Positions 29,875 through 35,180 of a DNA stretch of 46,200 bases are shown here, piece by piece. The translations under genes and the position numbers were made by a program. Origin of the DNA: a virus; IMG/VR virus record IMGVR_UViG_3300046484_000028, positions 1 to 46,200 of that record; one strand, 5' to 3'. The notes under the pieces were generated by a model. That model was not told the DNA's origin. It was given only the letters and a program-made list of their open reading frames with translations, and did not search any database. Position 1 is the stretch's first letter, and each line of letters opens with the position of its first letter.

Positions 29875-31143
29875 TCATTCCCAAATAACTTTTTTATAAT
29901 ATTCTAAATATGCACAGAGCCCAGATGTGCTATCTGGCGCATCATCTTTGTCCTTAGATGTGTTCGTCAAACTTACCATTTGGTCCATAAATAATTTCAA
30001 TGTTTCATTGGGATCTTCAGGGAAATAAAAATATCTTTTTACTAATCCTGAATTTGCTATAATCCTGCCCATTTTATTAGCTTTGGCAACTACTCCAAAT
30101 ACTTCTAAATCAGGCATCAATTCTCTTAGCCTCCTGCCAAAATATGCACCAAAACTATTTGTCTCTACTGCTATTTCATTTATGTGATGCGTACGAACTT
30201 TATTCTGAACTTGTGATTCTTGTATTGTAAGATTACATTGGTCAAAAATAGCATCAAACACATAAATTCTATTTTGGTATATTCTCGCAATTGGCATTGC
30301 AAAATAATCTTCTCCTGTATCTGCGCTGTCAATATACCCTACTGTGTAGTATTCCATATTTTCAGGAAACTCCTTGTATCTCTTTAGGCTACCTATCGGG
30401 AATACTTGCCCTACTAATTCACTGACCCAGCCACCAAGTACAATATTATCATACTCTTTAGGGTCATCGGTTCTTAACCGTTCATAGTCATTCAAAATGT
30501 TTTTAGGTATTCTCTTTTGATCAGCATCCAAATAACTCGAATGAATATACATCACATTATCAACGATACAATTGTCCCCGCCGGTTAATTTTTTCTTTTC
30601 AAACAGCTCTTTGAAGATCCAGTGTTCCCGTGTTGTCGGGTTAAGTATTAAAATAGTCAGGTTCCGTTTCGTGCTGGAGCGCATTGAATAAAAAATCTTT
30701 TTGAATGTCTTGTGGTCTGGCAGCTCTTCAGCTTCATCATTGATAAAAAGATTAAATCCTGACAGTGATTTAAGGTTTGCCGTTTGTCCCAGGCTGCCGG
30801 TTTTTATCCCTTTGAAAGCAATATGGCTGCCGTTATATTCAATATGTGTTCTGGTATCCAACACTTTACCGTTTATACCCATCAAATCAATTTTATCACT
30901 GAGCTCAGGCTTAACCGAATCAACAATTGACATATTTGTAAAACGGGTGTAAAGAACGTTCCACCCATAATTAACCAATGCTATGAGGGCAAATATTGAA
31001 ACAGTGTATGACTTCAGTGAGTACCTTCCGCCGGTGATTATTACGGTGTCAATCTCAGGATGAAAGTTATTGTCAAAGAGTTTAAATAACGGTCTGAATT
31101 TTATTGAAACCTCAAGGTCATCTATTGAGTTATTCGGATTCAT
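29875..31143 (-). CDS. terminase large subunit (intact)
   Basis: This 422-residue ATPase-nuclease packs DNA into proheads. The Walker A-like segment is TGGRYSLKS at residues 37-45. Walker B is LFINDEAEE near 135-143, and the coupling motif region LTILILNPTT follows. The RNase H-like nuclease has Asp in GYIDSADTGEDY near 270 and DDAPDSTSG near 400. It belongs to the PBSX/Terminase_3-like type. It overlaps the preceding TerS-like gene by 14 bases and differs completely from the broken TerL at 31821-32354. Confidence 0.92.
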   Translation of the reverse strand: MNPNNSIDDLEVSIKFRPLFKLFDNNFHPEIDTVIITGGRYSLKSYTVSIFALIALVNYGWNVLYTRFTNMSIVDSVKPELSDKIDLMGINGKVLDTRTHIEYNGSHIAFKGIKTGSLGQTANLKSLSGFNLFINDEAEELPDHKTFKKIFYSMRSSTKRNLTILILNPTTREHWIFKELFEKKKLTGGDNCIVDNVMYIHSSYLDADQKRIPKNILNDYERLRTDDPKEYDNIVLGGWVSELVGQVFPIGSLKRYKEFPENMEYYTVGYIDSADTGEDYFAMPIARIYQNRIYVFDAIFDQCNLTIQESQVQNKVRTHHINEIAVETNSFGAYFGRRLRELMPDLEVFGVVAKANKMGRIIANSGLVKRYFYFPEDPNETLKLFMDQMVSLTNTSKDKDDAPDSTSGLCAYLEYYKKVIWE

Positions 31144-31489: not shown

Positions 31490-31870
31490 TCAAATCAATT
31501 TACCATTAATTTTTAACAGGGCTTTCCCCAGCGTCCTAACCATCAGCGGGATTATTACGCTTTTATAATAATCCGACGGCCTCACCGTAACATCAAGCAT
31601 AACAAGCTCCTGCTCGCATATCTCACCGTTATCAATACCCGGCCCGGCCCAGAACCACGTCCCGCCCCCTATAAGGTCGCCGGCCTTATACTGCCTTTTA
31701 ATTGCGTTACGCCCTTTCATGCGGGGGAGCGGGGACGGGTGGAATACTAACGTACCAATACGGGGCTCCGATAACTCATCTGCGCTGAGTATTTTTTCAT
31801 AATCGGGGGCAATATTAAGGTCAAACCCAAAGTATAAATCCGAGTATGAATAAATATCGTGCCCGAGCGT
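31490..31870 (-). pseudogene. 5'-truncated formyltransferase-like gene
   Basis: The open frame runs from just after a TGA at 31871-31873 to the stop at 31490, about 126 codons. It encodes the C-terminal part of a formyl_trans_N-type enzyme: LVFHPSPLPRMKGRNAIKRQ (the HPSxLP motif) and GIDNGEICEQE (the aspartate motif). No ATG occurs before the HPSPLP motif, and the N-terminal cofactor-binding half is missing. The DNA looks more GC-rich than its surroundings. The frame begins inside the truncated TerL, so one deletion probably joined the two genes. A short product from ATG 31720 could still be made. Confidence 0.7.
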
Positions 31871-32815: not shown

Positions 32816-32845
32816 AAAAGGGATTGTTTCCACTGGCACAATCCC
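32816..32845 (-). terminator. terminator of the tmRNA gene
   Basis: On the minus strand GGGATTGT and ACAATCCC form a perfect eight-base-pair stem with a ten-base loop, followed by TTTT. It lies at the 3' end of the coding piece of the permuted tmRNA and before the packaging genes. Confidence 0.75.
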
Positions 32846-32971
32846 ATAAACCGTAGTTTTTCATTTGTCCCCTGTGCGCATCAGGGTGCATTTAAACACT
32901 TTCACTCGCTTGGTTTAATTTATCATGATTCAATGAACCTCGTTTGAGGGATTTCGTTCCCTCTTAACGGT

Positions 32972-33019
32972 CTAAGCTGCCATTCTTAATGACTGATCAG
33001 ACATTTTAATTGATTTGCC
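32972..33019 (-). other. tmRNA tag reading frame
   Basis: The resume codon is taken as GGC at 33019-33017, preceded by AAATAAAC. This aligns with AAATAGTC before the E. coli resume codon and keeps the T at -5 and A at -4. The tag reads GKSIKMSDQSLRMAA and stops at TAG. Bacteroidota tags that I recall start with G and end in (A)LAA or (A)MAA, for example GEESYAMAA, so the first and last residues fit while the middle is unusual. An alternative resume codon GCC 12 bases upstream would give a 19-residue tag starting AKIN. Confidence 0.8.
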
Positions 33020-33088
33020 GTTTATTTTGGCTTATCATTACCTTCATTGATTTATACTTTCCTTTGCTGTCAAAACCATGTCAACCCC

Positions 33089-33162
33089 GGTTAATAAGGC
33101 GAGGGTTAATTCTATAATCTAAGAGGCTGTGTAGGGCTGTATTAAATCAAAATTAACCCAGT
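33089..33162 (-). other. intervening segment of permuted tmRNA
   Basis: These 74 bases lie between the 3' acceptor end and the 5' G of the coding piece and should be removed during maturation. GGGTTAATT (complement of 33151-33159) and AATTAACCC (complement of 33103-33111) form a perfect nine-base-pair stem that would bring the two tRNA-like ends together for RNase P and 3' processing. Loop of 39 bases. Confidence 0.75.
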
Positions 33163-33306
33163 TGTGGAGTTGCCCGGAGTCGAACCGGGGTGCAAACAAA
33201 TTATTCTCTAAATCTCCAGTAATAATATTTTCAATGAACTTTAAAAACAGGGCATCTATTTTCCTATGCTGGCACCCTGTAAATCGAATATGGCTAATAT
33301 CCTGTT

Positions 33307-33338
33307 CAAAATTAAACTACTTTTAAATAGAAAACAAA
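33307..33338 (-). promoter_or_regulatory. Bacteroidota-type promoter for tmRNA
   Basis: On the minus strand TTTG (33338-33335), 20 bases, TAATTTTG (33314-33307) matches the Bacteroidota primary sigma consensus TTTG-N19-21-TAnnTTTG exactly. Transcription would begin near 33300, at the start of the acceptor piece and just past the stop of the preceding gene. Confidence 0.85.
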
Positions 33339-34064: not shown

Positions 34065-35180
34065 TTATTCTCCGTATTTAAGTAAAAATTCGGGATTAAC
34101 ACTTTTAAAAGAAACTCTGTTTTTTACTAATTGGCAATGTAGTTCTTTGTCTTCGATCTCAATCAAGGGCCGAATAACAATACCTTCTCTCAAAGTATTA
34201 TTTAACATACTTTGCCCTTTTGATATTTCAACAAGTTCAAGAATTGAATTAGAAAGTATATAATCATTACTCAATATAGGCACGATCTTTTCGTTTAATT
34301 TCTGGCATACTTCAATAAGTTCATCTATATTGCCATAAGTATATTTTTTAATGGAAAATACATTGAAAAAATAAATATCAAGTCCTTTTAAATGATATTT
34401 ATTACCCTGTATTCCTTCTCCAATTAATTCGCCTTGTAATGCAATATTTTCATCCCCGAACGCTATTTTAAACTTATTCTCTAAATCATGCCCTAATACT
34501 GCTCTCCAGTATTTATCTGATTCGTCCCGTTTTAAATCAATATTTCTGCTACATACACCAAACTTTCCATTTATTTGATAGATAGTTATCGAACTGCCAT
34601 CAAGTTTTTCAGTATAATAGCATTTTACCCCTTTATATTTATCAATCAATGGTTGTAATACTTGCACCCTTGTTTCGTCAGATTTTGGAATTAAAGAAGG
34701 AAAACTTTTCTGTCCTGAATTTTGTCTGTAATATTCACGAATAAACTTGAACTTATGTATAATTCTTTGTACCCATTGAGGCATCCATTTTGGGTACATA
34801 ATTTTACCATTCTGCTTAGAACATCTTTGTTCATCCTGATATGGTTCCCATTTCTTTATATTAAGGATCTCGGTGACGTCCAACCCTTCTAATATTTTTG
34901 TTCTTACTGGTAATATCGTTAATGGAAAACAAATACCCTGACTTATTTGACCACGTAATTTTATCGTCTTAATTCTCAATTTACGCTCTCTTAAAAATTC
35001 AAATTCGGGTTTATCTGGCAAAATTGAATCAATCTCACAATAAACACAAAGATCACCTAATTTAAATTCTCCCTTCTTTACTACCAATTGCCAACCCAAA
35101 ACAGTAGCCTTTTCAATTGCGTCTGCATTTTGTATAGACTCTAAATTGCTTATTTTTTGAATAGATGCTAAATTTCTCAT
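34065..35180 (-). CDS. RNA ligase (DRB0094/Rnl5-like)
   Basis: This 371-residue enzyme seals RNA ends through an adenylated lysine. An N-terminal OB-like domain (residues 1-110: ADAIEKATVLGWQLVVKKGEFKLGDLCVY in parts) precedes the nucleotidyltransferase domain. Motif I is EKLDGSS with K192; ALQGELIGEG is motif III-like, LREGIVIRPL motif IV and RVSFKSVN motif V. The N-terminal OB position is that of the Deinococcus DRB0094 ligase family. Phages use such ligases to repair tRNAs or mRNAs cut by host anticodon nucleases. It lies three genes upstream of the permuted tmRNA. Confidence 0.87.
   Translation of the reverse strand: MRNLASIQKISNLESIQNADAIEKATVLGWQLVVKKGEFKLGDLCVYCEIDSILPDKPEFEFLRERKLRIKTIKLRGQISQGICFPLTILPVRTKILEGLDVTEILNIKKWEPYQDEQRCSKQNGKIMYPKWMPQWVQRIIHKFKFIREYYRQNSGQKSFPSLIPKSDETRVQVLQPLIDKYKGVKCYYTEKLDGSSITIYQINGKFGVCSRNIDLKRDESDKYWRAVLGHDLENKFKIAFGDENIALQGELIGEGIQGNKYHLKGLDIYFFNVFSIKKYTYGNIDELIEVCQKLNEKIVPILSNDYILSNSILELVEISKGQSMLNNTLREGIVIRPLIEIEDKELHCQLVKNRVSFKSVNPEFLLKYGE

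Follow-up and report, generated by a model that had tools for sequence, protein, structure and literature searches.

The locus at positions 33300–32816 (minus strand) of the window, i.e. of the entire 46.2 kb stretch of viral DNA analyzed here, raises the question of whether a phage carries a tmRNA gene in circularly permuted form and, if so, where such a gene originated. A first-pass annotation had read the locus as a permuted tmRNA gene and had proposed comparison with the Rfam tmRNA models by Infernal. The comparison (cmscan) shows a match to RF04321, tmRNA_permuted, at positions 33213–32972 (minus strand) with a score of 63.8 bits, which is above the gathering cut-off of 47 (E-value = 3.9e-10). 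It is the sole Rfam match in the window. ARAGORN independently predicts a permuted tmRNA (tmRNA*) at positions 33254–32881 (minus strand) with the tag GKSIKMSDQSLRMAA. The standard one-piece model, RF00023, reaches 19.9 bits on the window, under its cut-off of 47.

Several other properties point in the same direction. The T-arm/acceptor pattern occurs once in the window and is absent from 100 shuffles. The two pieces interact with an energy of −14.7 kcal/mol, compared with −5.6 ± 3.0 when the coding piece is shuffled (2 of 200 shuffles are as low). An identical locus is found on an independent IMG/VR contig, L002, which represents the same phage in a different sample and argues against an assembly artefact. 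With the RF04321 and ARAGORN predictions and the covariation in homologues described below, the earlier identification is confirmed: the window gene is a real circularly permuted tmRNA gene.

The gene is best described in the 5′ to 3′ direction; all features are on the minus strand. An exact match to the Bacteroidota-type promoter consensus, TTTG-N20-TAATTTTG, is at positions 33307–33338. Because the window as a whole holds no excess of this motif (3 observed, 1.6 expected), the promoter is plausible but not proved. A hairpin recognized by sequence and fold, ACAGGG...CCCTGT followed by TTTTT, is at positions 33247–33280; it may be a 5′ leader structure or the terminator of the upstream gene. 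The leader motif TTCATTGA (TTCNTTGA), also found in leaders of Bacteroidota standard tmRNAs, is at positions 33231–33238. The acceptor piece, which is the tRNA 3′ half, encompasses positions 33165–33230 and is supported by the RF04321 alignment, by ARAGORN and by T-stem and P2 covariation in 20 homologues, although its 5′ end is approximate. It consists of the P2 strands (33216–33209 and 33200–33195), the T-arm (33189–33173), the acceptor strand CAACTCC (33172–33166) and the discriminator A at 33165. CCA is not encoded.

An intervening segment of 76 nt (positions 33089–33164) lies between the mature pieces and displays a 9-bp stem, 33159–33151 with 33111–33103 (fold z = −2.0). A general fold of this segment in the family is not supported, as z is below −1.5 in only 4 of 19 cases. 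The coding piece, at positions 32946–33088, is supported by RF04321, ARAGORN, alignment and fold; its 3′ end may lie after the post-tag hairpin or as far on as the terminator at 32816. It starts with the 5′ acceptor strand GGGGTTG (33088–33082) and continues with a D-like region to GAC, the P2 strands (33068–33063 and 33054–33049) and the resume codon GGC (33019–33017). The tag reading frame predicted by ARAGORN, GKSIKMSDQSLRMAA and a stop codon, is at positions 32972–33019 and specifies 15 residues. The post-tag hairpin is at 32963–32946. A terminator-like GC hairpin, GGGATTGT...ACAATCCC TTTT, is predicted from the fold at 32816–32845, but a consensus terminator scan did not flag it. The first-pass annotation had placed the T-arm, CAACTCC, the start of GGGGTTG at 33088, the promoter and the terminator correctly, and the seven acceptor pairs it had reported between the halves are all present, G3:U70 among them.

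The region downstream of the tag, positions 32855–32941 (minus strand), displays sequences reminiscent of the acceptor piece. TTCATTGA is found again at 32937–32930, and a T-arm-like CCCTG-7nt-CAGGG (a 5-bp stem with a 7-nt loop) is at 32886–32870. The local alignment score is 47.5, compared with 26.4 ± 4.4 in shuffles (none of 1000 as high); however, the candidate ranks just fourth among 1410 windows compared genome-wide. On this alignment the region may be a decayed second copy of the acceptor piece, but the evidence is suggestive only.

The window gene belongs to a widespread phage family that includes cultured, already sequenced phages. Nineteen further members have been found, thus 20 in all, from different phages; T-arm, acceptor stem, P2 and tag follow the identical permuted order in all of them. 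They are present in IMG/VR phages, in the cultured Maribacter phage Panino, in the uncultured crAss-like (Crassvirales) phage cr50_1 and, in the Bacteroidota genome G258, within a phage region. Additional members came from IMG/VR by pattern scanning, their tags including GKTIEFSKPSLRMVA, GKVISLNNAPLRAVA, GKTISMTERSQSRMAA, DKVIKLNPIVELKVAA and DNVINLFGNEAKIAA; the patterns behind most of the viral members fix TTTGAC or TTGAC. A BLAST search with one IMG/VR member led to Panino (PP540027; tag GKVMNVSFAPTVRQFA) and cr50_1 (MT774375), which belong to the same lineage as the window gene. In both deposited records the gene is annotated as “transfer-messenger RNA SsrA” with no mention of the permuted form or the lineage, and the paper describing Panino does not remark on either (PMC11590407). 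A blastn search of 50,697 phage records with the window gene gave no match since the members are too divergent, and it was the anchored patterns and covariance models that detected them. An exact pattern gave no match in 395 Bacteroidia genomes, which is attributed to the strictness of the pattern and to chromosomal permuted genes being absent or rare.

A survey of 396 Bacteroidota genomes across the phylum with RF04321 shows one permuted gene above the cut-off, that of G258, and none in the other 395. The G258 gene (tag GKVIQMNNAPVRLAA) lies amid phage replication genes, i.e. polymerase, helicases and exonuclease. G258 also has SmpB and a normal one-piece ssrA (tag GEDNYALAA), and the latter, which is intact, is on a different contig from the permuted copy. 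The premise of the first-pass annotation that Bacteroidota ssrA is normally in one piece thus holds, the single exception being in a phage-like region. Matches to RF04321 below the cut-off (28–39 bits) in 31 other Bacteroidota genomes were not retained; where checked, they are mostly standard one-piece tmRNAs.

Three permuted phage tmRNAs have a complete tRNA-Ala(TGC) gene inside the intervening segment (L081:3675–3748, L083:4787–4860 and L084:4462–4535), so that a tRNA lies in the part that is ordinarily discarded. One case of a tRNA in this position is known, from a nominally archaeal MAG (PMC11915505), and this might be a misbinned phage of the same kind. In cr50_1, a RAGATH-22 RNA (155.6 bits) is found at L101:870–1036, approximately 460 nt upstream of the permuted tmRNA.

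When the 20 sequences are aligned, RNAalifold recovers the acceptor stem, P2 and the T-arm unprompted, and 10 of 18 pairs show double changes. The covariation score is 0.462; shuffles give 0.107 ± 0.018, and slid controls do not exceed 0.096. All seven acceptor pairs are formed in every member, and none of the 20 departs from G3:U70, the pair that specifies alanine identity. The T-stem is paired in 100% of cells and P2 in 90.8%, both with double changes. Parts of both the acceptor stem and the T-stem were dictated by the search patterns. Acceptor pair 5, the outer pairs of the T-stem and the whole of P2 were not, and it is these pattern-free positions that carry the covariation. Six of the seven acceptor pairs are invariant and largely pattern-fixed, thus only pair 5 tests the acceptor stem. 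This pair is found as G-C, A-U, C-G, U-A and U-G with no mismatches (n = 20), so that the failure to covary which would have refuted the original proposal is not seen.

None of the 19 complete members has an interrupted tag frame in the alignment. Ala is the last tag residue in 17 of them and AA the last two in 13, where 2.2% per sequence would be expected for an equally long Ala-ended frame. Chain lengths are 9–37 residues with a mode of 15–16, and the tags follow a GKxI...RxAA pattern, with some ending in AVV, QFA or MAV. The resume codon is 46 to 69 nt from the 5′ end of the coding piece, compared with 89 to 101 nt in host genes; thus the pre-tag region is shortened in the phage genes.

Relatives of the window terminase large subunit (TerL) support the earlier designation of the virus as a Bacteroidota phage. 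The nearest annotated ones are from phages of Flavobacteriaceae, i.e. of Olleya (52% identity over 59% of the query), Leeuwenhoekiella, Nonlabens, Cellulophaga and Tenacibaculum, and prophage-type relatives are present in Dyadobacter and Sphingobacterium genomes. As judged from these sequences the assignment is well supported. Host assignment by counts of promoter motifs was inconclusive for the window and the terminase relatives were used in its place. Among 22 records with related TerL sequences, RF04321 detects the gene only in the same species and in the distant L030 (TerL 48%; RF04321 67.9 bits), where it is located elsewhere in the genome. Since most TerL relatives lack the tmRNA gene, it is accessory. 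Weak RF04321 matches in TerL relatives (L032–L036) were dropped.

An RNA ligase with Pfam and PHROG matches (PHA02142 OB-fold and RNA_ligase) is encoded near the tmRNA gene at positions 34065–35180 (minus strand) but has not been shown to be part of the system. Only one other tmRNA-bearing phage record, G942, has the ligase over the cut-off (the G943 match is weak), and a functional tie to the tmRNA was rejected on this basis. None of 11 TerL relatives without a tmRNA gene has the ligase. Upstream of the complete TerL gene (29875–31143), a 177 aa open reading frame at positions 31821–32354 matches part of the TerL profiles and is either a duplicate or a decayed copy of TerL.

Two-piece tmRNAs have been described in three bacterial clades (PMC11915505), and permuted tmRNAs of proteobacterial and cyanobacterial phages were known previously. 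ARAGORN had flagged 53 two-piece structures in phages, mostly marine or aquatic (PMC9004378). The window gene shares with the genes covered by RF04321, a merged model (PMC11915505), the order acceptor piece, intervening segment, coding piece, as well as the pairs of the tRNA-like domain and a score above gathering. However, all family members scanned score 52–70 bits with RF04321, whereas the other permuted genes of viruses reach 84–153 bits and in most cases pass beta_tmRNA as well. The alpha, beta and cyano models (RF01849–RF01851) give no gathering-level match in the window or in the other members scanned; the best class match in the window is to beta, 31.4 bits, and beta reaches 48.2 bits in L030 (cut-off 84). 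The family is therefore outside the three named classes, with which it shares the two-piece architecture; it differs in its long tags starting with G or D and in the position of the resume codon, whereas known-type examples have Ala-starting tags (AND...) and mostly UUUCGAC. The permuted ssrA genes of Methylophilales phage Melnitz, pelagiphages and cyanophages (PMC9004378) are likewise phage-borne, with the same proposed roles in infection, but are of the alphaproteobacterial or cyanobacterial type (Melnitz tag ANDNYVPVDYALAA, with UUCGAC) and not of Bacteroidota. A separate phage-borne set of beta-type permuted tmRNAs was also seen in the IMG/VR phages L037, L039, L040, L042, L043 and L044 (RF01850, 106–143 bits), with tags such as ANDETFALAA, ANDYDVAIAA and ANDESYALAA.

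The Bacteroidota one-piece genes (353–404 nt, with 9-residue tags such as GENNYALAA and GEDNYALAA) differ from the phage genes in being unpermuted, with a longer pre-tag region and without the 9–37 residue range of tags. However, they have in common with them UUUUGACAGC, the TAAAYGGC resume context and the leader TTCNTTGA. UUUUGAC and a GGC or GAC resume codon are found in both groups, and 56 of 78 Bacteroidota one-piece genes have tags that start with G or D. Only in the window, L047, L030, L100 and L101 is the UUUUGAC signature free of search bias, and all of these agree. Nine of 20 family members carry the exact leader motif, against 0.17 expected from shuffles. Among 78 Bacteroidota standard tmRNAs, 17 have it no more than 30 nt from the mature 5′ end, where 0.25 would be expected; in the phage genes it now precedes the acceptor piece. 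Before Bacteroidota ssrA it often takes the form GTTCTTTGA, e.g. in the leader of L071. The motif may be a boxA-like or processing signal, although its identity with boxA is untested; it was not seen before two 16S genes, for which only about 80–110 nt of leader each was available.

By nearest-neighbor distances, 18 of 19 members are closer to Bacteroidota one-piece genes than to known permuted genes, with one tie. This is a comparison of signatures and not a tree; it rests on approximately 24 nt and on unequal sets (56 versus 6 sequences), and convergence on the host SmpB or ribosome could mimic a signal of origin. From the shared UUUUGAC, GGC or GAC resume codon and leader motif, descent from a Bacteroidota one-piece gene is inferred, and the permutation is thus probably a fourth one. 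The independent permutation suggested by the first-pass annotation is favored by the distances and signatures but is not proved, as the sites are few and the groups unequal. The simplest reading of these sequences is that they represent a fourth two-piece tmRNA lineage, carried by phages and derived from a Bacteroidota ssrA. No description of a Bacteroidota-phage two-piece lineage was found in the literature searched, which was covered in part; 79 phage entries of a 2025 database were not inspected.

Other origins must be weighed against this. Phages demonstrably move permuted ssrA genes (PMC9004378), and an alpha, beta or cyano gene could have been acquired in this way and adapted to Bacteroidota hosts with no new permutation. 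The order of pieces is that of the known classes, the merged permuted model detects the gene, and the beta_tmRNA matches in the window and L030 are local ones over the tRNA domain. Such a transfer does not, however, account for the failure of every scanned member to pass a class-specific model, nor for the resume codon (GGC or GAC and not GCN), UUUUGAC and leader motif, all traits of Bacteroidota one-piece genes. The same Bacteroidota signatures are displayed by the standard-form tmRNA of Cellulophaga phage phi38:1, and acquisition from a known class is considered unlikely, without being negligible. The Calle/phi38:1 genus was itself tried as a permuted case and rejected because of this standard form. 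The phi38:1 tmRNA (NC_021796; L164:26803–27164; RF00023 87.6 bits) is unannotated in the RefSeq record; its tag is approximately 30 residues from the aligned GGA resume codon (GNNTNAVNAQIEANMEAVNAILNLEVAVGV, our reading), and ARAGORN reads 22.

A decoy that occupies host SmpB or AlaRS but yields no productive tagging, and so shuts down host trans-translation, would have a reported precedent in the tag-less tmRNA of mycobacteriophage DS6A (PMC4131195; PMC11915505), and the shortened pre-tag region might impair tagging. A decoy needs no reading frame, however, and nearly all 19 complete members retain the tag frame with its Ala-ended stop context, which makes this function quite improbable. ssrA is a common integration target. 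An att-linked copy in a temperate phage has been suggested for Panino, which has an integrase (PMC11590407), and the possible second acceptor segment in the window would fit such a remnant. Yet a permuted gene lacks collinearity with the one-piece ssrA of the host and is unable to reconstitute it upon integration, the G258 copy is on a different contig from the intact ssrA, and no integrase was found among the window proteins scanned (part of the open reading frames); an attachment remnant is thus very hard to sustain. That the locus is a non-functional relic or a chance assembly of tRNA fragments might be argued from its rarity in the 22 related records, but is scarcely credible in view of the E-value, the covariation over 20 members, the conserved tag termini and the identical copy on an independent contig. 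We therefore hold with good confidence that the window gene is a functional permuted ssrA of a phage-borne lineage distinct from alpha, beta and cyano, most probably derived from a Bacteroidota one-piece ssrA, with processing, charging and tagging inferred.

The anatomy, pairing and open tag frame are direct observations; how the RNA would work is inferred from known tmRNA biology in the absence of RNA data, and the role in ribosome rescue or retagging suggested by the first-pass annotation is likewise an inference. A single precursor would be transcribed and cut by host RNase P at 33088, and host 3′ processing would trim the acceptor piece to A33165 before CCA addition. The 7-bp acceptor stem and P2 would hold the two mature pieces together. 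Host AlaRS would read G3:U70 and charge the acceptor piece, and host SmpB, invoked because SmpB genes were not found in any of 14 phage records, would bring the tmRNA to ribosomes that had stalled on broken mRNA. Resuming at GGC, the ribosome would append (A)GKSIKMSDQSLRMAA and stop, leaving it recycled for phage translation and the product with a phage-specified tail. As the tag ends in -MAA, the tail is probably a protease degron. The likely advantage would be extra rescue capacity in infection, when phage or defence nucleases break mRNAs. It is also possible, but only tentatively proposed, that this fourth two-piece form originated from a one-piece ssrA of Bacteroidia, within phages or for their use, and was repurposed, i.e. 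that it competes for host SmpB and that its longer, non-host tags alter the fate of rescued proteins rather than just adding capacity.

Host and phage RNAs would encode different tags in one cell, thus mass spectrometry could tell which of them rescued which ribosome, and the reason for phages to carry a ribosome-rescue RNA of their own could be tested cleanly. The cultured phage Panino makes the lineage testable now, and the three loci with tRNA-Ala in the removed segment (L081, L083 and L084) are natural variants for studying two-piece production. If the interpretation is true, a fourth split-tmRNA lineage is present in phages of a phylum with one-piece tmRNA, which would mean that rearranged stable RNAs can arise in phages or be maintained by them.
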